Part shown: piece after piece, positions 30,634 to 62,411 of the stretch
Numbering within the stretch: position 1 is the stretch's first letter
Layout of the letters: every line of letters begins with the position of its first letter
NCBI RefSeq assembly: GCF_002117485.1
Contig: NZ_CP021031.1
Location: 186,001-250,000, forward strand
DNA: 64,000 bases
DNA from: Rhizobium sp. NXC14
GTDB lineage: Bacteria > Pseudomonadota > Alphaproteobacteria > Rhizobiales > Rhizobiaceae
Reading direction: 5' to 3'
Made by a program: the position numbers and the translations under genes
The notes under the pieces: model-generated
Told to the model about the DNA's origin: nothing
Database searches by the model: none
What the model saw: only the letters and a program-made list of their open reading frames with translations

Positions 30634-31617
<984 letters not shown>

Positions 31618-33019: not shown

Positions 33020-34033
33020 ATGCTTGAAAAGTTTGATCGATTCCCCCTGACGTTCGGACCCACGCCGATCGAGAAACTCGACCGTCTCGGTAAGCACCTA
33101 GGCGGGAAAGTCGAGATTTATGCAAAGCGGGAGGATTGCAACTCCGGCCTTGCGTTTGGCGGAAACAAGCTCCGCAAACTCGAATACATTGTTCCGGACG
33201 CGATCGCGTCGAACGCCGATACGCTCGTGTCTATCGGGGCAGTACAGTCCAACCACACACGCATGGTCGCTGCGGTTGCCGCCAAGATCGGAATGAAGTG
33301 CCTACTAGTGCAGGAAAACTGGGTACCGGATCAGAATCCCGTTTACAGCCAAGTCGGCAATATACTGTTGAGCCGGATCATGGGAGCAGAGGTAAACTTG
33401 GTCGACAAAGGCTTCGACATTGGTATTCGTCCTAGTTGGGAAGAGGCAGTTAATGAGGTCAAGCAGAGGGGCGGCAGCCCCTATGGAATCCCAGCCGGGG
33501 CATCTGCTCACAAGTATGGCGCTCTGGGCTACGTCGGCTTTGCAGATGAAGTTCGCGTCCAAGAGGAGCAACTTCGGTTCGGCTTCGACTACATTGTGGT
33601 TTGCACTGTGACCGGCTCGACACAGGCGGGCATGATCGTCGGTTTTGCCAAGGACGGAAGAGCGCGAAACGTGATTGGCATTGACGCTTCTGCGACGCCC
33701 GACCATGCGAGGGCCCAAGTGCTAAAAATTGCGCGGGATGCTGCGAAGCTCACTGGTCTCACCAAAGAGGTTGTCGACGATGACGTGGTCTTGTTCGAGG
33801 AGTACGCTTACCCACATTACGGGATTCCGTCAGAGGAAACAAAGCAGGCGATTCGTTTATGCGCGCGCCTTGAGGGCATGATCACCGATCCTGTCTACGA
33901 GGGGAAATCGATGCAAGGCATGATCGACCTAGTCCAAGGGGGCTTCTTCCCAGATGGGTCGAGGATTCTCTTCGTCCATCTTGGAGGCGTCCCGGCAATC
34001 AACGGCTACGGCTATATGTTCCTTGATGGCTGA
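33020..34033 (+). CDS. acdS: 1-aminocyclopropane-1-carboxylate deaminase
   Basis: This 337-residue PLP enzyme splits ACC to 2-oxobutyrate and ammonia, lowering plant ethylene and favouring nodulation. The PLP lysine is K50 in GGNKLRKLE. The residues that separate true ACC deaminases from D-cysteine desulfhydrases are present: Glu in DPVYEGKS and Leu in VHLGG. GAGAGG precedes the ATG. In Mesorhizobium acdS is NifA-controlled; here I see no -24/-12 element upstream, and no acdR beside it. It precedes an aspartokinase gene. Confidence 0.93.
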
Positions 34034-34499
34034 TATCGAGCCCGCGCTAAATCAGTCGATGCTACTGTAGCGATTTGGCGGCGGCTGAGACTCAAACGGA
34101 CGCCGTGAATGAGAATTGCCGAAAACAGGCTGGAGACAAGCCAAGCTAGTTGAGCGTTCCTTCGTCGTTCCAATGTCCTTGTAACAGAAGCTCCACTGCA
34201 GGCGCCAAGTCGTGTTGGGAGGTTGCCATGTGATGCCTCCGACATTGATCACCCGGCAATCAGCAACATAAGCTACAGCTGTATGACGATGGCGAGTGTC
34301 GGCGCGAAGCACAGGAAGGTAAACAACCGGCCCTACCGATCTCGGTAGTTCATGACGACTTCATCATCGCTTAGACTTGCACGTCATAGCCGTCACAGTT
34401 GGAGTCCGACGTGGATCTGGGCACAGCCCAAAATCAAGCCGCCATTCGGGGCGCTTCTAAGTTTGCGGCTGCAGTCGGAAACAATGCGGTTGGTGAAAT
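34034..34499. other. Intergenic stretch between acdS and the aspartokinase
   Basis: About 465 bases without a supportable gene, nod box or NifA site. The leader may hold the promoter of the aspartokinase, but none is recognised. Confidence 0.4.
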
Positions 34500-35660
34500 A
34501 TGAATGTAGCCGTTCTAAAATTTGGCGGTTCAAGCTTTCAAAGGCCTGAAGATTACGGTCGGGTCGCTCGGCACCTGGCCGAGCGTCTCGCACATGGCCA
34601 GATCAAGATTGTTGCCGTGGTCAGCGCGATGTCGGGAACGACTGACAAGCTGAGATCGGTGATGCTCGACGTTAACGACCAAGCGCGGCCATCAAACCTG
34701 GACGCCGCGCTTGCGACGGGGGAGATGCTCAGCGCCTGTTTGTTGGAAGCAGCCGTCAGTCGGCTTGGATTGGCGGTGATGTCTTGCAACGGCTATTCGC
34801 TCGGTATTCGCACAGATTCGGATTTTGGTCGCGCATCGGTGGAAAGTGCAGATCCTGGGCATTTGATTGCAGCACTCCAGGACAATGACGTTGTGGTCGC
34901 CGCGGGCGGCCAGGGGGTTGATGACAGTGGTCGGATAACCTTCCTTGGAAGAAACAGTTCTGACCTGACAGCAATTGTGATTGCATCCATGCTGGGGGAG
35001 CACGTGTGTGAAATTTACTCGGATGTTCCCGGTATCTACACGGCGGATCCGAATCTCGTCGCGGGAGCACGCCTAATCCCGGAGATTGCTTACGGCACGG
35101 CTGCAAAGATGTCACGACATGGTGCAAAAGTGCTCCACCATCGAGCGGTGGACTACGCTGAGCAGCACTCTGTGACCATTGCTTGCAAATCTCTCATGAA
35201 CGACGGAACGGTAATGGCGGGCACATTCGTGACAGATCAAGGGGACGCGAGCACGGTGACGCTCGCTCGCGACTCAGCCCTGTTGTCGTGCAGGAGTCTC
35301 GAAGAACGCAATAGACTCCGGGATTTTCTCGACCAACGGGAAATCCATGCAGTTTGTACGGATGAGACCGGTCTATGTATTTTATGCGACGTTGATTTCG
35401 CCCTGAGGCTTCTCACGGTGGTGGGCGACCAGTCCCTCTATGTTGGTTCAAGATCGGCCGTGACAGAGTTAGGTTGTGCGAGTCTGCGCGTCCATCTCGA
35501 AGAGAATTCCGAGGGCGCGATTGCTCGGGCGCGCCAGATTCATGAACGAATGTATCCTGACTCAAACACCAAGCCACTTTGTCCGAGCGTACCAATGCAT
35601 TGCTCCACATACAGTTCTTTACTCATCCACACGAACAACGCCCCGGAAGATCGGCGATAA
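34500..35660 (+). CDS. Aspartokinase-like protein with degenerate regulatory domain
   Basis: This 386-residue protein has a complete kinase domain: KFGGSS at residues 7-12, VVSAMSGTTDKL, TGEMLSACLL, FLGRNSSDLTA and IYSDVPGIYTADPNLV, GAKVLHHRAVDYAE. The C-terminal ACT region is short and divergent (SLEERNRLRDFLDQREIHAVCTDETGLCILC..), and the end (MHCSTYSSLLIHTNN..) is unlike the family. Such accessory kinases in biosynthetic clusters are often freed from feedback control. It would supply aspartyl phosphate, then aspartate semialdehyde. The next gene is a diaminobutyrate-type aminotransferase, which uses that semialdehyde. The ATG at 34500 has little Shine-Dalgarno sequence. Confidence 0.8.
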   Translation: MNVAVLKFGGSSFQRPEDYGRVARHLAERLAHGQIKIVAVVSAMSGTTDKLRSVMLDVNDQARPSNLDAALATGEMLSACLLEAAVSRLGLAVMSCNGYSLGIRTDSDFGRASVESADPGHLIAALQDNDVVVAAGGQGVDDSGRITFLGRNSSDLTAIVIASMLGEHVCEIYSDVPGIYTADPNLVAGARLIPEIAYGTAAKMSRHGAKVLHHRAVDYAEQHSVTIACKSLMNDGTVMAGTFVTDQGDASTVTLARDSALLSCRSLEERNRLRDFLDQREIHAVCTDETGLCILCDVDFALRLLTVVGDQSLYVGSRSAVTELGCASLRVHLEENSEGAIARARQIHERMYPDSNTKPLCPSVPMHCSTYSSLLIHTNNAPEDRR

Positions 35661-36118
35661 GCCGAGGCGATCCCATGAGGTGACCCATGCTGCAAATGCC
35701 TTTGAGGCAGTGCGCGGATCACCATATACCTGCGCAACTAGCTAGCACGAAAGAGCGTATCCGACCGTTCAGCTGCGCAGGCGTTCCCATTATAATGAAG
35801 TTAGGAAGGCGTTCACCGTTCGAAGGTAGACCTTGGGATACAGCCGCGGTCTTGCTGTCGATCGTTCGCAAAAGAGGCATACCGGCTGTTTTCATAGTAA
35901 TCTCCTCCGTCGTGAAATTTTCCCCGTAAAGGCAGATGCCATGCCAATCCGCCTGTCTGCTTTTCTGAAAATCCTTTAACCGGTGGGCGCCACTACCATG
36001 TTGGGTAGGCGCATGTACGTGCGCCGCGGTTTAATGTGGCCCGGGCCGAGCAGCTTACCGGCGAGCGGGTTGGCCGCTGGACAGTCGATGCCGCAATTGC
36101 GCCTGATGGAGAAAGACC
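35661..36118. other. Intergenic stretch before the aminotransferase
   Basis: About 460 bases. No promoter motif of the nod or nif type is seen, and the small open frames have no family features. It might have held a gene between kinase and aminotransferase that is now lost. Confidence 0.4.
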
Positions 36119-37390
36119 ATGCTTCAGGAAAGTAGCTCCAACTCGTTGGTTACGTTCGAAACTCTTGAGTCGAATGTGCGATCATATTCGCGGACGTTCC
36201 CGGTGGTGTTCAAAAAGGCTGCAGGAGCAATTCTGGAGGACGAGAACAGTTGCGAGTTTATCGACTTTCTTTCCGGCGCGAGTGCTCTTAACTATGGTCA
36301 CAACGACCCGTATATCCTTAGCAATGCTCTCGAATATTTAAAAACAAATGGAATTCTCCACGCTTTGGACATGGCTACGTCAGTGAAACGGGAGTTTATG
36401 GAGCTTTTCAACGAGATAATATTGCGTCCACGTGGTCTCGCATACAAGTTTCAGTTCGCTGGACCAACTGGCGCCAATGCCGTTGAAGCTGCTTTGAAAC
36501 TTGCGCGCAAGGCTACAGGACGGCACAACATAATCTCGTTCACGAACGGCTATCACGGACTAAGCTTGGGTGCGCTCGCTGTAACCGGCAATCGATACTT
36601 CCGGGACGCAGCAGGCCTTACAGCTGCTGGCGCAGTGTTCATGCCTTACGACGGCTACTTGGGAGCCGATCATGATACCACGGAATATCTTGACAGGATC
36701 CTTGACGATCGTAGCAGTGGTGTCGACCTCCCGGCAGCCGTAATTCTGGAAACGATTCAAGGCGAAGGTGGCATCAACCCTGCGAGCAAAGACTGGTTGC
36801 AGTCGATCGAGCGGCTTTGCAGAAAGAATGAAATCCTGCTGATTGTTGATGACATTCAGGCTGGCTGCGGACGAACGGGCGATTTTTTTAGTTTCGAGTT
36901 CGCGAACCTATCTCCGGATATCGTGCTTTTGTCGAAGTCCCTCAGCGGTTGTGGGCTGCCACTGTCCCTTTTGCTGTTGAAACCCGAACTTGATGTCTGG
37001 CTGCCCGGCGAACACAGTGGAACGTTCAGGGGCAACAATCTGGCACTCGTGACGGCGTCGGCTGCTTTGCGAAAATACTGGACACAAGATTCCCTATCCA
37101 AGGATGTCGTCGAGCTAGGCGGTATCGCAGGAGAACGCCTTCGACAAGTCGCGCAGCGCAACGGAGATCTAAACCTTTCGGTCCGGGGAAGGGGCATGAT
37201 GCTGGGGCTGGACTGCGGTAAAAGCGATCTGGCTGAAATTATTGTCCGTAATGCCTTCGAGGATGGGCTTGTGGTGGAACGGTGCGGCGCGGAAGACCAG
37301 GTGATCAAACTTCTTCCTCCGCTGACCCTTGACAGGCCGACTCTTCAACGTGGCCTCGATATTTTGGACAGGGCCGTGCAGAGCGCTTAG
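36119..37390 (+). CDS. 2,4-diaminobutyrate 4-aminotransferase-like protein
   Basis: This 423-residue class-III aminotransferase resembles EctB/DABA aminotransferases, which make L-2,4-diaminobutyrate from aspartate semialdehyde with glutamate. Landmarks are FQFAGPTGANAVEAALKLARKATGR, the PLP aspartate D244 in LIVDDIQAGCGRTG, and the Schiff-base lysine K273 in LLSKSLSG. GGAGAAAG precedes the ATG. Its base composition is more AT-rich than the plasmid's older genes. With the aspartokinase upstream it forms a DABA-producing pair. DABA is used for siderophores (rhizobactin), ectoine or as an antimetabolite; no other enzyme of those routes is adjacent. Confidence 0.82.
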   Translation: MLQESSSNSLVTFETLESNVRSYSRTFPVVFKKAAGAILEDENSCEFIDFLSGASALNYGHNDPYILSNALEYLKTNGILHALDMATSVKREFMELFNEIILRPRGLAYKFQFAGPTGANAVEAALKLARKATGRHNIISFTNGYHGLSLGALAVTGNRYFRDAAGLTAAGAVFMPYDGYLGADHDTTEYLDRILDDRSSGVDLPAAVILETIQGEGGINPASKDWLQSIERLCRKNEILLIVDDIQAGCGRTGDFFSFEFANLSPDIVLLSKSLSGCGLPLSLLLLKPELDVWLPGEHSGTFRGNNLALVTASAALRKYWTQDSLSKDVVELGGIAGERLRQVAQRNGDLNLSVRGRGMMLGLDCGKSDLAEIIVRNAFEDGLVVERCGAEDQVIKLLPPLTLDRPTLQRGLDILDRAVQSA

Positions 37391-44861: not shown

Positions 44862-45446
44862 GGCTGGTGAAGTCCGATAGACGAGGAGGAGCGCGAATTC
44901 AATCAAGCGATTGCGCGATGAGCTTCCGGTGCCAGAACGTCGAGGTTAGTTGCACTAAAGATGTGCAAGACGCGCGCGACAAAGCGGGATCTTCAGAAGG
45001 GCTTCGGAGCTCGTTCTCCTCATCCAAGCCAGCTTAATCCGTCGCGCAGACGCCGGATCATGAAACGATCGATGTGGCGCGGTGCAAGCTGCAAGTCGAA
45101 GGTTGGGCGCCGCCCCACGCTGATGAAGACCGTACCTTGTGGATGAAGATCGGTGCGGCTCGGACCTACCGCTGAGCGCAGTGTCCCCTTTCCGACAATG
45201 TTGGCTTTAGGACAAGACTGCCGGAATCATCTCGGGCTTGGAACGATCTCGCGGTTTGGCGCGGATCATGCATTACAGTGCGGACATTGTAGAAGGGAAG
45301 AGGAACAACCATCGCAGGATCGGTCAAGCAAAAGACGGTCTTGGCCGAAAGACTCTGCCTCGCCCCCGGGGGTGAGTAACACGTCCTGAAGCACGCATTT
45401 TTTTGGTACGCAGCTTTTCACATCATCACATCGAGAGGAAACCGTT
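44862..45446. other. Gene-poor stretch
   Basis: About 580 bases between a nod box and the start of a broken methyltransferase gene. No gene is supported; short frames are without motif. Confidence 0.45.
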
Positions 45447-46753: not shown

Positions 46754-47965
46754 TCAAGCTTCCCTTATAGCCACCACGGCGTTCATGCCGCCAAAGGCGA
46801 AGGAATTGCTAACGGCTGCCCGGACTTTGCGCTCCCGGGCTATGTTGGGCGTCACGTCGAGATCGCAATCCGGGTCCTTCTTGCGGTGGTTCGCGGTCGG
46901 CGGAATGATTCCCTCACGGATCGCCATGACACAAGCGATCAACTCGAGGGCGCCGGATGCCCCCAGGCAGTGCGCATGCATCGACTTGGTCGATGACACC
47001 GACAGGGCATCCGCGTGTTTGCCAAAGACATGGCGGATTGCCTTGGTCTCGAAACGATCATTGAATTTGGTGCCTGTTCCGTGCGCGTTGACATAGTCGA
47101 TGTCTTCAGGGAGCAGCCCGGCATCGGCGAGGCATGCGTTCATCGCAGCGACCGGGCCCTCAATGGTCGGAGCGACGATGTCCGAGGCATCGCCGGACAT
47201 ACCGGTACCGGCAAGCTCGGCTAGGATTGGAGCGCCACGTGCTACGGCATGTTCATAGGTTTCCAGCACTGCGATGCCAGCACCTTCGCCGAGAACCAAT
47301 CCATCACGGTCGGCCGAGAATGGCCGGCAGGTTTCGCGGGCGAGGATGCGCAGCGCCTCCCAAGCCTTCAATGAACCAAATGTGAGGGGCGTATCGGTGC
47401 CCCCAGCTAGCATGACGTCCGCTCTACCGGTTCTGAGCTGATCGCACGCCGATATGAAAGCCTGATTGGACGACGAGCAGGCGGAGCTGACCCCGAAAAC
47501 AGGCCCGCGTAGCCCGTAGACTATGCTGACCTGGCCGGCTGGCGCGCCAGGCATGGCACGAGGCACGGTAAAGACATTGGTATGGGTTTTCCGCTCGATG
47601 AATATCGCGCGGTAGTTTTTTTCAATTGTCTCGGTTCCGAAGATTGCCGTGCCGACAACTACGCCGATGCGACTGCTGTTGTCTGCCTCCACCACGAGAC
47701 CGGATTGCCTGAGCGCCTCGCCGGCAGCAAGAACAGCCAGAAGGCTGAAGCGGTCCATGGTCACGAGGCGCTTTCGGTCGAACTCGACTCCGGGCAGTTG
47801 CTTAATCTCCGCGCCGATGCGGATTTTCAGATCATCGACCGGCGCCGTGGTCACCTCACCGATTGACGATCGGCCGACACGCATTCCTTCCCAAATGCAT
47901 GGAGCGCTGAGGCCCATGGCGCAGATGCCGCCGATCCCGGTGATAACGATGCGAGGATAGGCCAT
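46754..47965 (-). CDS. nodE: NodE, beta-ketoacyl synthase for special Nod factor acyl chains
   Basis: This 403-residue KAS-II-type enzyme has the catalytic cysteine C163 in [13 protein letters not shown] and the histidines in [15 protein letters not shown] and [20 protein letters not shown] 47965 gives [18 protein letters not shown] and a length like R. leguminosarum NodE (about 402). It works with NodF to build polyunsaturated or long acyl chains that set host range. It is 11 bases after nodF on the same strand. The typical R. etli bean microsymbiont lipid chain (C18:1) does not need NodFE, so its presence is notable. Confidence 0.9.
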
Positions 47966-52468: not shown

Positions 52469-52702
52469 ATGAACATGCTCGTCTATCTCATTCCGCTCGC
52501 ATTATTCATGGGCGCGCTTGGGCTCAATGCTTTTCTGTGGTCGCTAAAGAGCAGGCAGTACGGGTCGTGTCCGTTCCGCACGCGGCCGCGCCGTCATATC
52601 TTCGCAGACAGAGCTCTTGGGACGTCCGTCAAAAGTGGCGTGCTGTACGACGAACTGCACCCGCCGGCTGAGATACGGTGTCCGCCTGAAAGCGGCCGGT
52701 GA
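52469..52702 (+). pseudogene. fixS, altered C-terminus
   Basis: The start overlaps the fixI end and reads MNMLVYLIPLALFMGALGLNAFLWSLKSRQY, the single-helix FixS protein of cbb3 oxidase assembly. The usual acidic tail (DDLDGAAWR) is replaced by an unrelated Arg/Pro-rich stretch (GSCPFRTRPRRHIF..) up to 52702, so the gene was truncated by a deletion. The helix may still be made. Confidence 0.7.
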
Positions 52703-52861
52703 TGGGCCTCGTTGGCGACATAAACTTCACGCTCGCGAAGCTAGCCAGTTGCCGCCAGCCATCGGGATCACCTGTGGCCTCTGCCTGACCACGTCACTCG
52801 CAAGCTCGCGGCCTGCAACTGGCAAAATAGAAAAGCTGCAACAGCAACCGACGTACTGGGC

Positions 52862-53947
52862 TCAGCGCTCTTCCTTCCACAGCATATTCGGTAACGAGCC
52901 CGGCAGATCGAGGTGTTCGGGAAAATCGGGAAACCGGATTAGATCATTGCCTCGCATGAAGATGGCAATATCAGCTTCAGGGTCCCTCCCTATGTAATAT
53001 TCTCGTCTGACTTTTCCGCGACTCGAGTCGAATACGAAGCGTGTCGAATTTATCCATGATGGCGAAATGAGGCTAAGCTGATCAGCGATTTGCCAGACGC
53101 GGCTCAGGCGCACACGAAATGCGGCAGAGAAGAAGATCGGATCAGGAATAAAGATTGAAAGATTGCGCACGCCCACCTCGTCTAGAATTTCCAGCAGACG
53201 GTAGAGGACCATAGGATGATCGTTAATGTTGCGCAGCAATGGAAATTGGTTGTATAGCCTGACGTTCTTCTCTCGAAGCTCCGAGATTTTTTCAGCCACC
53301 ACCTCGCAGAGTTCGTATGGGTGCGCGATGTGAAAAACGACGCGGACATTGTGCTTGGCCAGCAGAACCATCTTTTCCGCTGTAAAAGCACGCGGCTCAT
53401 ATACTATGGCTCTAGTATGAATTCGAATAGATTTCACTGTGGATACAGATGAAATTCCTTCGAGGATCGATTCTAGCCGAGGTCCAGGTATCGTCAGCGG
53501 ATCACCACCCGATAAAATAACTTCCGTAACACTCGCATTGGCCCTAAGCAAATCGAGTAGTTGGCTGAGATTTTCGTTTTCCATCTCGGAGCCGCCTGCT
53601 ACCGCACTTCCTGCGAGCATACTCGTACGAAAGCAGTACTGGCAGTGTCCGAAGCAGCGCGAAGTCGCCATGAAAAGAACTCGGTTCGCGTACTTCATTA
53701 TCGTGCCGGTGTGGCCAAGTGTATTCGACCTGTCGCCTACAAAATCATCGACCTCGATGGGGGATCGTAGTGAAATTTTGTCTTCCGAAGGGAATGCGAC
53801 TCGGCAAAGCGGCCCCGGTTCACCCAACGCACTGGCTTCGGCTTCTATTTTCGTTTTGTAGAATGGTGTTACCTTGATAGGCAATAGGCCTTCATTGAAG
53901 GCGATCTCGCTGTATTCTTTGTCGAGTTTGTGTTTCATTCGAACCAC
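52862..53947 (-). CDS. KamA-like radical SAM enzyme (lysine 2,3-aminomutase family)
   Basis: This 361-residue protein has the radical SAM cluster motif C-x3-C-x2-C (Cys98, 102, 105 in SRCFGHCQYCFR), the SGGDPL motif, and a C-terminal lysine K312 in FVFDSSRGKVRR, aligning with the PLP lysine of lysine 2,3-aminomutase (usual context AxGGGGK). It is shorter than classic KamA and lacks the glycine run, so the amino acid substrate may differ. It overlaps the end of the permease gene by 13 bases, making a three-gene operon. It would move an amino group from C2 to C3 of lysine or a relative, giving a beta-amino acid. Confidence 0.82.
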   Translation of the reverse strand: MVRMKHKLDKEYSEIAFNEGLLPIKVTPFYKTKIEAEASALGEPGPLCRVAFPSEDKISLRSPIEVDDFVGDRSNTLGHTGTIMKYANRVLFMATSRCFGHCQYCFRTSMLAGSAVAGGSEMENENLSQLLDLLRANASVTEVILSGGDPLTIPGPRLESILEGISSVSTVKSIRIHTRAIVYEPRAFTAEKMVLLAKHNVRVVFHIAHPYELCEVVAEKISELREKNVRLYNQFPLLRNINDHPMVLYRLLEILDEVGVRNLSIFIPDPIFFSAAFRVRLSRVWQIADQLSLISPSWINSTRFVFDSSRGKVRREYYIGRDPEADIAIFMRGNDLIRFPDFPEHLDLPGSLPNMLWKEER

Positions 53948-55176
53948 TCACCCCGGCTAATTCGATCAAGCCAATAAGCCAATAGAGCAATGATCGCGAT
54001 GTATAAGAGAGATGAAACAACACTCATCATAATCGCTAAAGAAGGGACTATAATCAGCGTAGCCAGCAGCGAGGAAATCTGTGTCTGGAGTAGTTTAACT
54101 AACGCAAGGGCCGATAATATGTATATGGCAAGAAAGTTCATTCCCGCCAAACTGAACATAACTTCGATATTAAGAACGCCTATTCGATCGCATGCCAGCA
54201 CGAGGAGGAGGGCGGCCGTGACGACATAGACACTGTTGCGAGGCTCAACGTTGAGGTTTGCAGGGAGGAAATTCCTCCTCGAAAGATACGCAACAAGCCG
54301 CGAGACTGCCATAACTGACCCGAAGAGATTGGCGGCGATCAGTGAAACACCTATTAGGGGAACCAGCCAGATCGGGGCAGATGGCAAGACTTGGAAGCCA
54401 ACTTCATACATCGGCGTATTGTAATTCGCCCTGATCTCCGCCAATTGCACAATCGCTGCAGAAGCAACATACACGCCGCAGACCACGATGAATGCAAAGA
54501 ACATCGCTCGCCCGAAGTTCACTTTTGGCTCTCGAAAATCCTCTGACAAGTGGCAGGCGATGTCCCAGCCGGTGAATGAAAAGAAAATCAGCGGAACCTG
54601 GCTGGCGATTGCCGAGAAATTTGAGGGTGGATCGAACCGCACGTCTTTGTCCCATGTTTCGAGCACAAGAAAAACCAAAAGCATAGCCAACAATATAAAC
54701 AATGAACTTCCACCGACAAGGTTTACGACACTGCGAAGTGTCCCGCCACTCGAGCAGGCGAAACCTGCGGCAAGTAAGATAAGAAGCGCAGCGAAGACGT
54801 GAATATCCACGCCGAGATGAGTTGTCTTCTCCAAATAGCTTGCCCCCACGATGGCGATCGAAGGCAAGCCCAATACAGTCGCGCCCAGAAATAGTAGCGA
54901 CACGAACAGCTCTGCATATTGGCCGAACGCAAGTTTGGCATAATATGCAACGCCACCGGCGCTCGGATGCGTACCAGCCAGAATGATCATGGTGAGAAGG
55001 ATTGGCGTGCAGAGCGCTGCGCAACCGATCCAGGCATAGATGCTGTCTCTCCCAATTTTCTCGTATACTAGACCGGGAAGAACAAGAATCCCTGAGCCAA
55101 GTATTACCGAAATTATCAGAAGCATACCTGTTACGACGCCAAGATGGCCTTCGGTATCGTCTTTTCGGTCACTCAC
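53935..55176 (-). CDS. APC-family amino acid permease
   Basis: This 413-residue inner-membrane protein has about 12 helices. The N-terminal MLLIISVILGSGILVLPGLVYEKIG has the GSGIL unwound-helix motif of APC transporters that binds the amino acid backbone. FTGWDIACHLSEDFREPKVNFGRA is the helix-6 and following signature. It is coupled to the kamA-like gene (13-base overlap) and lies 68 bp after the YqcI-like gene. It is AT-rich compared with nif and nod genes. It probably imports or exports the substrate or product of the aminomutase. Confidence 0.88.
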   Translation of the reverse strand: MSDRKDDTEGHLGVVTGMLLIISVILGSGILVLPGLVYEKIGRDSIYAWIGCAALCTPILLTMIILAGTHPSAGGVAYYAKLAFGQYAELFVSLLFLGATVLGLPSIAIVGASYLEKTTHLGVDIHVFAALLILLAAGFACSSGGTLRSVVNLVGGSSLFILLAMLLVFLVLETWDKDVRFDPPSNFSAIASQVPLIFFSFTGWDIACHLSEDFREPKVNFGRAMFFAFIVVCGVYVASAAIVQLAEIRANYNTPMYEVGFQVLPSAPIWLVPLIGVSLIAANLFGSVMAVSRLVAYLSRRNFLPANLNVEPRNSVYVVTAALLLVLACDRIGVLNIEVMFSLAGMNFLAIYILSALALVKLLQTQISSLLATLIIVPSLAIMMSVVSSLLYIAIIALLAYWLDRISRGEWFE

Positions 55177-55244
55177 AAATGCCTCCGAGGGAGTTGATAT
55201 TTTGAAAGAGGAGTTTGGAAAGTAACTGACATTAATGCGTCACA

Positions 55245-56159
55245 CTACTTGAAGCGCAATGGGCACTTTAAGGGTGGTGAATCATTATTGTCAGGGATCA
55301 TGTATTGCGGCCACTGGGCTTCTCTTAGGAGGTATGACCCGAGCAAGGCGCTGTGGGGGACATCGTCGTAGAGGTCGATGTTGTTCCTAATGGTTTTGGT
55401 GACGCGCCTGCCTTTCGCATCATCCGGCGCGGCGATGTCGAAAATCTTACGCGGGTTGATAACGAAAGCTAAGCCATCGCCTAAGTTTCTGCTTCTCCGG
55501 TTAACATGCGCCGGATGGCTGACATTCACGAAGAGTTCACAACCTTGAAAGCACATGGTCCACGTATGGTGGTCGGGATCCTTGGACACGTTTGTTGGCC
55601 AAGCCTCCTGATCGACGTCGAGCAGAAACTGCATCGCTTCGATGAATACCTGTTGGAACTGATCGGCTGTCGTGAATATGGCTACCGGCTCGAAGAGCAC
55701 CAGCAGAGGCCGGTGCCTGCTCACGTGGAGGGATTTGACATCAACTTGATCGATGTACGACCGCAAATCATTGGCAAGAACGTGAAAATCATACTTGGAT
55801 ATGTCGACATTGTACGGCACGAGCAGAAAGCGCACGTTGCCACTTCTGACAGAATTGTGTCCAAATATGCACGGGAATCCATCGCGCGTCCCTGGATCAT
55901 TTTTGAACTTGGATAGTACATGAGACGTTGCAGCGTGACCCCAATTGAATGACGCGGGAAGGTTAGTGCATTCGGCTTGTTCAATAAGCATTTGCTCTCT
56001 CCCGTTAATGATTAGACCGAGCGTGAAATTTTGTGGTGGCACCAGAAGCGCGCCAGCGCGGTCCGGGCCGCTATCCTCGTATGTTGGCGGATCGGGTGGG
56101 AGCATTGCTGCCACGTTTTGGTATCCGGCCTGCGGATTGGCGAGCAAGCATCGTGCCAA
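55245..56159 (-). CDS. YqcI/YcgG-family protein, possible heme N-oxygenase
   Basis: This 304-residue protein is of the YqcI/YcgG family: FPCIFGHNSVRSGNVRFLLVPYNVD (about residues 94-118), LLVLFEPVAIFTTADQFQQVFIEAMQFL, HTWTMCFQGCELFVNVSHPAHVNRRSRNLGDGLAFVINPR. At least one member, GntA, is a heme-dependent N-hydroxylase acting on a guanidino amino acid. Here it is the first gene of an operon with an APC permease and a KamA-like aminomutase, so an N-hydroxylated amine or beta-amino acid product is a reasonable inference. The first ~40 residues (MARCLLANPQAGYQN..) are variable, and a start further in is possible. Confidence 0.78.
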   Translation of the reverse strand: MARCLLANPQAGYQNVAAMLPPDPPTYEDSGPDRAGALLVPPQNFTLGLIINGREQMLIEQAECTNLPASFNWGHAATSHVLSKFKNDPGTRDGFPCIFGHNSVRSGNVRFLLVPYNVDISKYDFHVLANDLRSYIDQVDVKSLHVSRHRPLLVLFEPVAIFTTADQFQQVFIEAMQFLLDVDQEAWPTNVSKDPDHHTWTMCFQGCELFVNVSHPAHVNRRSRNLGDGLAFVINPRKIFDIAAPDDAKGRRVTKTIRNNIDLYDDVPHSALLGSYLLREAQWPQYMIPDNNDSPPLKCPLRFK

Positions 56160-57100
56160 AGGAAATCAAATTGCCTAGCAAGGGTGTGGCGACTGATGCA
56201 GTTTGTATTTTACCCGGCGGTTTCGAATTTCAGGGTATCTATCCTTCGCAAATTGGCGGGCGAGGAAGGAGGCCGGGTATGGTCTCGCGCGTGAATCGGC
56301 CCATAGCTTGTCTAAAGCAGATCCTGACGACCGATGAATCGAGGTTCAACGCACCTTCGAACCCCCAGCGAGCAAGCGCACCAGGGCTCGGAGGCGGTTT
56401 TTCCTCATAAATCGATTGCCCATGACTCAGACATCTGCGCCCCTTGGGTGGAGTCGTATTGCGCGCGCGCCATTTCAATAGCGTAATCAGTAAACCCTCC
56501 ACATCCCGTGGGCATGGCTCGCTGGTCTCTGACCTTCTTAGCGGTGTTGGTCTTGCTCAATGCGCAGCACCGCGGGTCTTCCGTGGGACTTGGCGCCCGC
56601 ACCGCATGGCACCGCTTCACTTATGTTCCGTTGGCGGGCTCGCAATTAGTGAGGGAGGCGGAGTTTCGGAGATCAAATTGGCGTGCGCGGATTACCAGAG
56701 CGATAACCGATAAGGCTCCCTTGACGAGCAGCCTGAGGCGATGACGGGGCCGTCCGAGCTAGCCAAATGGGATATGAGTAGACACCGAAGTGGATCGTAT
56801 TCGCAAGGGTGATCGATATCGCCGTCAGATACAACTGAAGCCCTGACGAGCAGCAAAATGTTAATTTTGGTGAAAATTCAATGTAATTGTTGATTGGTTG
56901 CGGTTGTCTCCAGATTTGAGAGACCGGCCGATTTTCCCTGCATTGCTGAAGCAATTTGGCTAAGTCCTCAAAAATTTGCTATAGCGTCAAAAGATACCCG
57001 AAAAGGTATAGAAGCAGCTGATGTGTGGCGGTGACAATTGGTTCAAATCGGTTCAAGCTGGTGCACACCTAGCACGAGTGGCAGAGAAAAGGGACGGGCG
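56160..57100. other. Long gene-poor stretch
   Basis: About 940 bases upstream of the YqcI operon and of the HTH gene. No nod box, NifA site or anaerobox was found. A minus-strand frame at 56239-56500 has no recognised domain. Confidence 0.45.
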
Positions 57101-57580
57101 GTGACGGAAGATCTAGCAAGCTACAGACGTTCAAGAGGCCTCGTCAGCACCACCGATCCTGAGGTTGACAAGCCGATTTATCGAAAGCCGGGTTTCGATG
57201 GCAAAATTACAACATTGGGGGATATGGAGGAATTGATCAGCGCATTTCTGAAGAAGATGCGCGAAGCTCGAGGCCTGTCTCGCGCCGACATTGCCCCGAT
57301 GCTTGGTCTTTCCATACCTGTATACGGACGCTACGAGCGGGCATTTTCCAAAATGACTGTCACCCGGATGATCCATCTGTGTGAGATTCTCGGTTTTATG
57401 CCTATCGATATGATCTTTGAAGTTGCGCCCCACCTTTGGGGCCGCACATCAGAGGAAGCCGAGGATTGTCGAACCTTGGCTCGGATTCTAAGAAGCCTTC
57501 CGAGCGACACGAGGCGCGATCTTATTCGGCTCTTGCAGCGAATGATCCCTGCTGACAACGAGAGCGAAAGAGGGCTGTGA
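57101..57580 (+). CDS. HTH (Cro/C1-type) regulator beside repC, copy 1
   Basis: This 159-residue protein (GTG 57101) has an XRE helix-turn-helix at about residues 45-95 (MREARGLSRADIAPMLGLSIPVYGRYERAFSKMTVTRMIHLCEIL). It shares an N-terminal block, DPEVDKPIYRKPGFDGKI, with the regulator at 60695-61228 (DPGIDKPVYRKPFDGRI), and the HTH continues with PHLWGRT / PHLWGET in both. The two paralogues flank repC. The upstream frame to 57038 lacks a good start. Regulation of replication or conjugation is possible; the target is unknown. Confidence 0.75.
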   Translation: MTEDLASYRRSRGLVSTTDPEVDKPIYRKPGFDGKITTLGDMEELISAFLKKMREARGLSRADIAPMLGLSIPVYGRYERAFSKMTVTRMIHLCEILGFMPIDMIFEVAPHLWGRTSEEAEDCRTLARILRSLPSDTRRDLIRLLQRMIPADNESERGL

Positions 57581-61542: not shown

Positions 61543-61820
61543 CCCATGATGATGCATAGGAAAAATGTCGATAACCCGACAAGTTTGGTGGTTACCAGAC
61601 AAGTAAGTCGACACAAATTGCGAGTGGCTCAGGAAGGTCGGAAGTATTGAGCAAGTTTGTCACTTCAGGCGCGAGCACTGTCGAAAGATCGATCATCTCA
61701 CTTGGCCAATATCGCGAACCCCGGGTGACGGTGTCTGGCACGCAGCGAACTGACCGCTGCTTCGGCCCCATAATGCGGTCTTCAAAAAGCAGCAAGAAAA
61801 AAGAACAAGGAGGTCTTTGC

Positions 61821-62411
61821 ATGCGCTCTGAGGTGCGGTGGAAGCTGTGCTGGGAAAACGAGCTGGAACTCGCCGACCATGTCGAACTTGCCGAGTTCTT
61901 TCGGAAAACCTACGGGCCGACTGGAGTCTTCAACGCAAAGCCGTTCAGCGGGAGCCAAAGCTGGGCCGGAGCAAGGCCTGAGCTTCGGGCAATCGGCTAT
62001 GACTCAAGTGGCGTGGCGGCTCATATGGGATTGCTGCGCCGTTTCATCAAGGTTGCCGGAGTCGACCTGCTGGTGGCCGAACTAGGCTTATATGGGGTAC
62101 GTCCGAATCTTGAGGGGCTCGGGATCTCCCATTCAATCCATGCTTTGTCTCCGACACTGCAGGACCTTCAAGTTCCATTCGCTTTTGGTACCGTTCGGCC
62201 AGAGCTTCGGAAGCATGTTGAAAGGTTCGGCAGACGCGGCCCGGTGACTGTCTTGTCGGGAATCCGCGTGCGATCCACTCTCCCCGACGCGCGTCTCGAC
62301 AAGCCGCCCACGCGCGTCGAGGATCCACTTGTCATCGTTCTGCCAGTTGGACGGCCGATGTCCGATTGGCCCACCGGAACGATGATCGATCGGAACGGAC
62401 CAGAGCTATGA
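61821..62411 (+). CDS. nodA: NodA, N-acyltransferase
   Basis: This 196-residue protein transfers the fatty acyl chain to the deacetylated chitin oligomer, a core step of Nod factor synthesis. It begins [42 protein letters not shown], the canonical NodA start; the ATG at 61821 is preceded by AAGGAGGT. The end ([26 protein letters not shown]) is typical. Its stop overlaps the nodB start. NodA is selective for acyl chains, fitting NodFE here. The open frame upstream to 61647 is not part of the protein. Confidence 0.96.

Follow-up and report, generated by a model that had tools for sequence, protein, structure and literature searches.

A 64,000-nucleotide stretch of Rhizobium sp. NXC14 (assembly GCF_002117485.1, contig NZ_CP021031.1, positions 186,001 to 250,000; hereafter the window) holds three consecutive intact open reading frames (ORFs) on its minus strand, whose products all score over curated Pfam cut-offs and which lie behind a sigma54-type promoter element. 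The first gene, yqcI (55245–55991, 248 amino acids), encodes a YqcI/YcgG-family protein that is a predicted thiolate-heme N-oxygenase; the second (53935–55176, 413 amino acids) encodes an APC-family amino acid permease; and the third, a kamA-like gene (52862–53938, 358 amino acids), encodes an aminomutase-type enzyme of the radical S-adenosylmethionine (SAM)/pyridoxal phosphate (PLP) kind. An earlier reading of the DNA made without database searches (the sequence-only reading) had picked out this same-strand set, and matches to PF08892, PF13520 and PF04055 confirmed it: its observation is real, and its interpretation is partly supported.

The boundaries of two of the genes changed on closer comparison. 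We place the yqcI start at ATG 55991, behind a Shine-Dalgarno-like GGGAGAG and at the internal ATG where its homologues also begin, rather than at TTG 56159, from which a 304-residue product had been drawn; the codons between the two positions overlie the promoter and leader. The 68-bp gap given between yqcI and the permease gene was right; the 13-base overlap given for the next junction is most likely a 4-nt ATGA, with kamA starting at ATG 53938 in an ORF that extends to GTG 53947. This ATGA junction is also found in Rhizobium etli IE4771 and at loci L002, L037, L067, L070 and L072, and is missing from L068, unlike the other junctions compared. About 150 bp upstream of the yqcI start lies the sigma54 −24/−12 element TGGCACG-N4-TTGCT (56143–56158, minus strand), and directly after kamA a consensus scan finds a weak terminator-like hairpin with a T-rich tail (52834–52849, minus strand), one of a class of sites that the scan returns 7 times in 52500–57200 against 4.5 expected from shuffles. 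An Rfam search of the same interval at the gathering threshold gave no structured leader RNA match. We considered a leader peptide or precursor of a ribosomally synthesized and post-translationally modified peptide between promoter and yqcI and dropped it: short ORFs are present there, and their sequences diverge past about ten residues. The leaders of L002, L067, L068–L070 and L072 are alike just past the promoter and then diverge; the shared stretch comprises a Shine-Dalgarno-like GAGGAGA, an ATG and some ten codons, as if the promoter had arrived with the start of another gene.

Homologues never being found together had been named as grounds for abandoning the set; the three-gene order instead recurs in three genera, Rhizobium, Mesorhizobium and Bradyrhizobium. 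Searching GTDB species contigs with a YqcI alignment, we obtained 34 loci, and among the five nearest in sequence four carry the permease gene and kamA in the same order (Mesorhizobium sp. LSJC280B00, Bradyrhizobium mercantei, B. macuxiense and B. aeschynomenes), the fifth, in Mesorhizobium AR07, being a broken fragment. The same order is annotated in Mesorhizobium huakuii 583 p_2 and in both R. etli plasmids, and is present in Bradyrhizobium genomes G571, G572, G575, G686 and G759. Indeed, the three genes stand together in every intact close-clade locus, with the exception of an extra yqcI in G572; this genome has two yqcI copies about 6 kb apart (locus L073, 7983–8648 and 14392–17652), each behind its own sigma54/NifA-type site, and just one of them precedes a permease gene and kamA. 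The stretch 52800–56300 is 100.0% identical to R. etli NXC12 plasmid pRetNXC12d and 92.1% identical to R. etli IE4771 pRetIE4771b; against the latter strain, dN/dS is 0.146 for yqcI, 0.257 for the permease gene and 0.181 for kamA, which indicates purifying selection. Because the same order is seen in three genera, and dN/dS in this comparison is 0.15–0.26, we regard the operon as more than a chance arrangement. The claim that intact genes amid decay imply selection thus gains from the dN/dS values, and loses something to one interrupted Bradyrhizobium yqcI and to the Mesorhizobium locus of which only a remnant is left.

Carriers are few. Close-type YqcI (E ≤ 1e-100) occurs in 8 of 265 Bradyrhizobium genomes (13 at E ≤ 1e-30) and in 2 of 146 Mesorhizobium genomes, plus the one remnant; the KamA clade occurs in 2 of 148 Rhizobium genomes, one with the operon and the other, Rhizobium sp. 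007, with a LysE-type locus. In a sample of the phylum the clade was found in 2 of 398 genomes, one of them NXC14 itself; a Pfam search of four ORFs around the other match gave no families, and these ORFs may have been picked in the wrong frames. This rare and patchy occurrence suggests that the operon probably moves between symbiotic replicons. In trees of both YqcI and KamA, the R. etli-type sequences, the two from Mesorhizobium and those of G571, G572 and G575 form well-supported groups; the grouping of B. mercantei with B. macuxiense is well supported for KamA only, B. aeschynomenes is placed differently and resolution of the deep branches is poor. When all ORFs of at least 70 amino acids around 13 operons were compared with one another, no further gene proved common to at least three of the seven lineage groups; the only other matches at that level were shadow frames, a transposase-like ORF and a weak match to an ABC protein.

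YqcI scores 159.5 bits against PF08892 (cut-off 27), and its predicted model matches AglA with a TM-score of 0.83 (E 5e-17). C41 aligns with the AglA heme ligand Cys44, R168 and R202 correspond to the heme-propionate arginines R166 and R200, and together with F154, R181, F184 and Q229 these residues agree with the heme and gate or substrate positions of AglA. The protein thus shares its fold, cysteine heme ligand, propionate-binding arginines and phenylalanine gate with the heme-dependent guanidine N-hydroxylases AglA, ChmN, GntA, DcsA, AmbT and Mhr24, but differs from the AglA group in its identity to AglA of about 26%, in pocket positions Q177, K196 and K225 and in being partnered with an aminomutase; its score against the GntA equivalog NF041366 is 41.3 bits, below the cut-off of 145. 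Characterised YqcI/YcgG members hydroxylate arginine derivatives, according to PMC12866846. The permease scores 81.7 bits against PF13520 (AA_permease_2; cut-off 27), and its closest NCBIfam relative is the YjeH-type L-methionine/branched-chain transporter PRK11021 (NF008245), at 133.5 bits against a cut-off of 284; a sequence search with it turned up no solved structure.

KamA matches PF04055 (Radical_SAM) at 33.4 bits, over the curated cut-off, and has the residues of an aminomutase: the CxxxCxxC motif and PLP-type lysine named in the sequence-only reading are C98/C102/C105 and K312, and they are joined by a GGD motif (G147–D149) and a carboxylate-binding arginine, R107. R107, D269, D307 and K312 align with R134, D293, D330 and K337 of lysine 2,3-aminomutase (LAM), which we take to be its carboxylate arginine, two substrate aspartates and PLP lysine, respectively. 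As both substrate aspartates are kept, the side chain of the KamA substrate is presumably positively charged. The protein therefore resembles AblA/LAM (2a5h) and EpmB in its radical SAM core, PLP lysine, carboxylate arginine and aspartates, but falls far under the cut-offs of the named NCBIfam equivalogs: 115.5 bits against AblA (TIGR03820; 525.4), 144.3 against EpmB (TIGR03821; 369.3) and 107 against arginine 2,3-aminomutase (TIGR04468; 600), with 152.4 against the KamA family model (TIGR00238; 199.2). We rejected modification of elongation factor P (EF-P), the EpmB role, as a likely function, given the score far under the EpmB cut-off and a second KamA-family protein of the same genome, encoded on contig C1, whose score exceeds the TIGR00238 cut-off. 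A third KamA-family protein lies on the same symbiotic replicon (G000:C2:320912-321715) and has arginine in place of aspartate at the LAM D293 position, as does a protein named lysine 2,3-aminomutase on a plasmid of Sinorhizobium medicae. Two published studies describe kamA as a sigma54 gene in Bacilli (PMC12316311) and an EF-P-type aminomutase gene, bll8232, in soybean bradyrhizobia (PMC8632152).

The promoter element suggests a tie between the operon and nitrogen fixation. The exact element at 56143–56158 is the single match to TGGCACGNNNNTTGCW in the window; genome-wide there are nine, against one for a reversed control pattern, of which six are on the replicon of the operon and two of those six precede copies of one gene. 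In R. etli IE4771 the element is in the same position. We scored the GG-N10-GC element as matches to 12 specified consensus positions across 13 distinct yqcI upstream regions of the clade (L040, identical to the window, was left out) and found a score of at least 10 in 11 of them, with 9 in G686; these regions are not independent, since they include the window and IE4771, two near-identical Mesorhizobium operons and four copies from three close Bradyrhizobium genomes, among them the G572 yqcI that has neither permease gene nor kamA. An exact NifA-type site, TGT-N10-ACA, lies 51–89 bp above the sigma54 element in 6 of the 13, and at least one member of five of the seven lineage groups has such a site, the R. 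etli and B. aeschynomenes groups being those without. Among 20,000 random 700-bp stretches of such loci, 4.4% score at least 10, and 1.8% score at least 9 and have a suitably spaced activator site; of four methyltransferase-type YqcI cassettes examined and three distinct loci pairing kamA with a LysE-type gene, none scores 10 or more (one of the latter scores 9). Both the sequence of the element and its distance vary between lineages, so that it seems to have been retained rather than recently copied. The operon thus resembles the NifA/sigma54 regulon of rhizobia in its −24/−12 element and, in those six regions, its activator site, and departs from it in the R. etli lineage, which has no exact activator site; in our proposal a fixation-type sigma54 promoter drives the operon, with NifA as the likely activator. 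These promoters provide a link to symbiosis, which the sequence-only reading had put forward as a guess.

The company that the operon keeps is consistent with this. All eight Bradyrhizobium carriers have a strong nifH match, against 158 of 265 genomes over the cut-off across the genus (probability about 0.016 with phylogeny ignored), and five Bradyrhizobium genomes with only a distant YqcI have no strong match; nifH status in G541, G759 and these five was judged by best E-value. In the three genomes listed with both on one contig, the operon is about 106 kb (G575), 158 kb (G572) and 135 kb (G686) from nifH. In the window it sits in a symbiosis region with nifH at 30700, acdS at 33020, a nodE-like synthase gene at 46754, nodA at 61647 and nodB at 62366, the nifH and nod genes being named by reading of the ORFs and acdS by NCBIfam. 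In Paraburkholderia phymatum, PMC8305402 describes lower levels of Bphy_7706, a gene for some kind of radical SAM protein, in nifA nodules.

Two further sites in the window have features of the same regulon. On the plus strand at 45182–45273, two TGT-N10-ACA sites stand 58 and 75 bp upstream of TGGCGCGGATCATGC; this is a good NifA/sigma54-type promoter that faces only short, apparently decayed ORFs. Beside acdS, at 34500–37390 on the plus strand, an aspartate-kinase-like gene (under equivalog cut-offs, its C-terminal part little matched) is followed by an EctB-type diaminobutyrate transaminase gene over its cut-off, with a TGT-N10-ACA at 34229 nearby. The P. phymatum ectB transcript is also lower in nifA nodules (PMC8305402), which by analogy makes a symbiotic diaminobutyrate pathway at 34500–37390 possible.

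Relatives of the operon suggest a modular architecture. Across 35 distinct YqcI loci (the 34 from the GTDB scan plus one more, counting L046 with L013, and L042 and L066 with L038, as single loci), an APC permease gene adjoins yqcI on the same strand in 12, four of which also have kamA. In L006–L010, from two Rhizobium, Allorhizobium taibaishanense, Agrobacterium vitis and a Rhizobiaceae metagenome-assembled genome, the YqcI proteins are 38–43% identical to that of the window and an APC permease gene follows downstream on the same strand; unlike the window operon, these loci have a methyltransferase gene between the two (products 57–76% identical to that of L008) instead of kamA, and the four upstream regions examined, of five, lack a strong sigma54 element. 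Leisingera and Thioclava plasmids (L096, 4929–7278; L097, 4901–7266) likewise join yqcI to an APC permease gene, the permeases being 34% and 31% identical, respectively, to that of the window, but have a small cupin gene in between, a divergent Lrp-type regulator gene and no kamA. Five Bradyrhizobium genomes (L059–L063) have a related cupin gene close to their distant yqcI. SznF combines an N-oxygenase domain with an N–N-forming cupin domain, and ChmN was proposed to replace the former (PMC10849742). By this precedent the cupin of the Leisingera and Thioclava plasmids perhaps forms an N–N bond, which makes these operons candidates for minimal routes to a free N-nitroso or diazeniumdiolate amino acid; more generally, the YqcI–permease units look like minimal cassettes of N-oxygenase, tailoring enzyme and transporter, in which KamA would be the rhizobial version of the tailoring enzyme.

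A sister clade of KamA has its own transporter: its gene overlaps that of a LysE-type protein on plasmids of the nodule isolates Rhizobium sp. 007 and S. medicae and in Mesorhizobium LSJC280B00 (L038, 9956–11714, which is also L066 and L042; L039, 9923–11681; and L065), the LysE match being in two pieces in LSJC280B00. LysE proteins are exporters, and the pairing therefore ties this type of KamA independently to amino acid transport. An argB gene beside the pair, taken up as a hint of an ornithine substrate, was dropped, as it is present in S. medicae and in neither of the other two distinct loci. At L019, in Xenorhabdus stockiae, a distant yqcI is followed by genes for an arginase-family and a PLP-dependent (PALP) enzyme, a set that to us is reminiscent of the D-cycloserine genes.

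We propose that the operon is a mobile, self-contained three-gene cassette, transcribed by sigma54 in nitrogen-fixing symbiosis, that modifies and moves a basic amino acid, a reading that we hold about evenly balanced between right and wrong. The operon would be switched on in the low-oxygen nodule by a sigma54 activator, which in most lineage groups would be NifA. KamA, with SAM, a [4Fe-4S] cluster and PLP, would move the amino group of a basic amino acid from the alpha to the beta carbon, and YqcI, with heme, O2 and a reductase encoded elsewhere, would then hydroxylate a nitrogen of the side chain of the same molecule, most likely the guanidine of arginine or beta-arginine; the permease would carry the product out of the bacteroid or, less in keeping with our proposal, the substrate in. 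The sequences directly support the gene content and order, purifying selection, the promoter elements and the conservation of residues and fold; a single molecule acted on by both enzymes, its origin from arginine, the order of the two steps, export in preference to import and expression in nodules are inferred from them. The N-oxidised or beta-amino product with transport that the sequence-only reading had suggested fits the conserved active-site residues. Arginine is favoured as substrate by the YqcI family and by arginine supply to bacteroids, arginine being described as a host-supplied compound for bacteroids in PMC8305402; lysine is favoured by the two aspartates of KamA.

This conflict between the arginine and lysine clues is the chief reason for our even judgement, and several other observations also weigh against the proposal. 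An annotated Azospirillum arginine 2,3-aminomutase has threonine, not aspartate, at the LAM D330 position, so that the KamA pocket looks more lysine-like than arginine-like, and some more distant members of the KamA clade have glutamate at D269. In YqcI, AglA residues Q177, K196 and K225 are replaced by N179, T198 and Q226, K196 being the third heme-propionate contact of AglA, and no reductase gene was seen linked to the operon. The window has no exact TGT-N10-ACA within 200 bp of the promoter; its 5-of-6 match is at chance level, since 40% of random 200-bp stretches have one, and IE4771 does not have even that near its promoter. M. huakuii has no sigma54 element within 700 bp and an annotated IS1380 transposase gene upstream, and the B. 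macuxiense yqcI has an in-frame stop. YqcI and KamA relatives, on contigs of equal length, also occur in an uncultured Rhodoferax, and the pair is therefore probably not exclusive to nodules.

One promoter might instead serve two products, with YqcI and the permease making and exporting N-hydroxy-arginine and KamA separately making free beta-lysine or beta-ornithine, for instance for use as a compatible solute. The 8 of 12 APC-linked loci without kamA, the loci of S. medicae and Rhizobium sp. 007 in which a KamA of the same broad clade has a LysE transporter beside it but no YqcI, and the lysine-binding aspartates would all suit such a division; however, kamA overlaps the permease stop by ATGA in most copies checked, the trio stays together (the extra G572 yqcI excepted) and no conserved neighbour is fit to be a beta-lysine acetyltransferase, and we think it rather unlikely. 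An acetyl-beta-lysine osmolyte pathway, for which we found no supporting conserved neighbour, was set aside. Alternatively, the permease might import a plant amino acid such as arginine, lysine or canavanine, which the enzymes would modify for nitrogen use or protection. Host supply of arginine to bacteroids fits this, and the LysE transporters found with the sister KamA could serve to pump out toxic compounds; yet aminomutation and N-hydroxylation free no nitrogen, no catabolic follow-on enzyme is conserved nearby, and the promoter is of fixation type with no regulator gene conserved beside the operon, which makes uptake and breakdown clearly unlikely.

We give still less credence to a role of the enzymes in providing a non-standard amino acid for use by a peptide or metallophore assembly line whose genes lie elsewhere. 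YqcI proteins do act in non-ribosomal peptide synthetase (NRPS) pathways (ChmN, PMC10849742; YqcI/YcgG with NRPS operons, PMC2922099), and the M. huakuii operon has an NRPS gene about 7 kb away, but no assembly-line gene is conserved with the operon across lineages and the presence of a permease gene in it speaks for movement of a free amino acid; we judge this very unlikely. That the operon is a neutral passenger of symbiosis islands without present function, as its patchy spread in the three genera and the interrupted yqcI might indicate, is highly improbable in view of dN/dS values of 0.15–0.26 (from one strain pair) and a fixation-type promoter that is kept with locally different sequence in several lineages.

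Each protein of the proposed cassette belongs to a known superfamily; the combination, the fixation-type promoter and the conservation across rhizobia did not appear among the matches listed in the open-licence literature, where no title or abstract describes the operon. We also advance a bolder form of the proposal, as a speculation that is probably wrong. In it, N-hydroxy-beta-arginine, or something close to it, would be produced and exported by the bacteroids of several unrelated rhizobia; this analogue of N-hydroxyarginine, the nitric-oxide-synthase intermediate, would serve as a dedicated signal in symbiosis, an inhibitor of arginase or a precursor of nitric oxide. More broadly, YqcI, an exchangeable tailoring enzyme and an APC permease would make up a family of modular, minimal routes to free N-oxidised amino acids. 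Beyond fixed nitrogen, we know of few small bacteroid metabolites under fixation-type control. A conserved mobile unit with a fixation-type promoter in three genera, including B. aeschynomenes, which nodulates without Nod factor, would be a sign that mature nodules contain a metabolite so far unrecognised. The operon further suggests that a radical SAM aminomutase and a heme N-oxygenase can work as partners, a pairing that would be new, and that cassettes for free N-oxidised amino acids are built on a modular plan.

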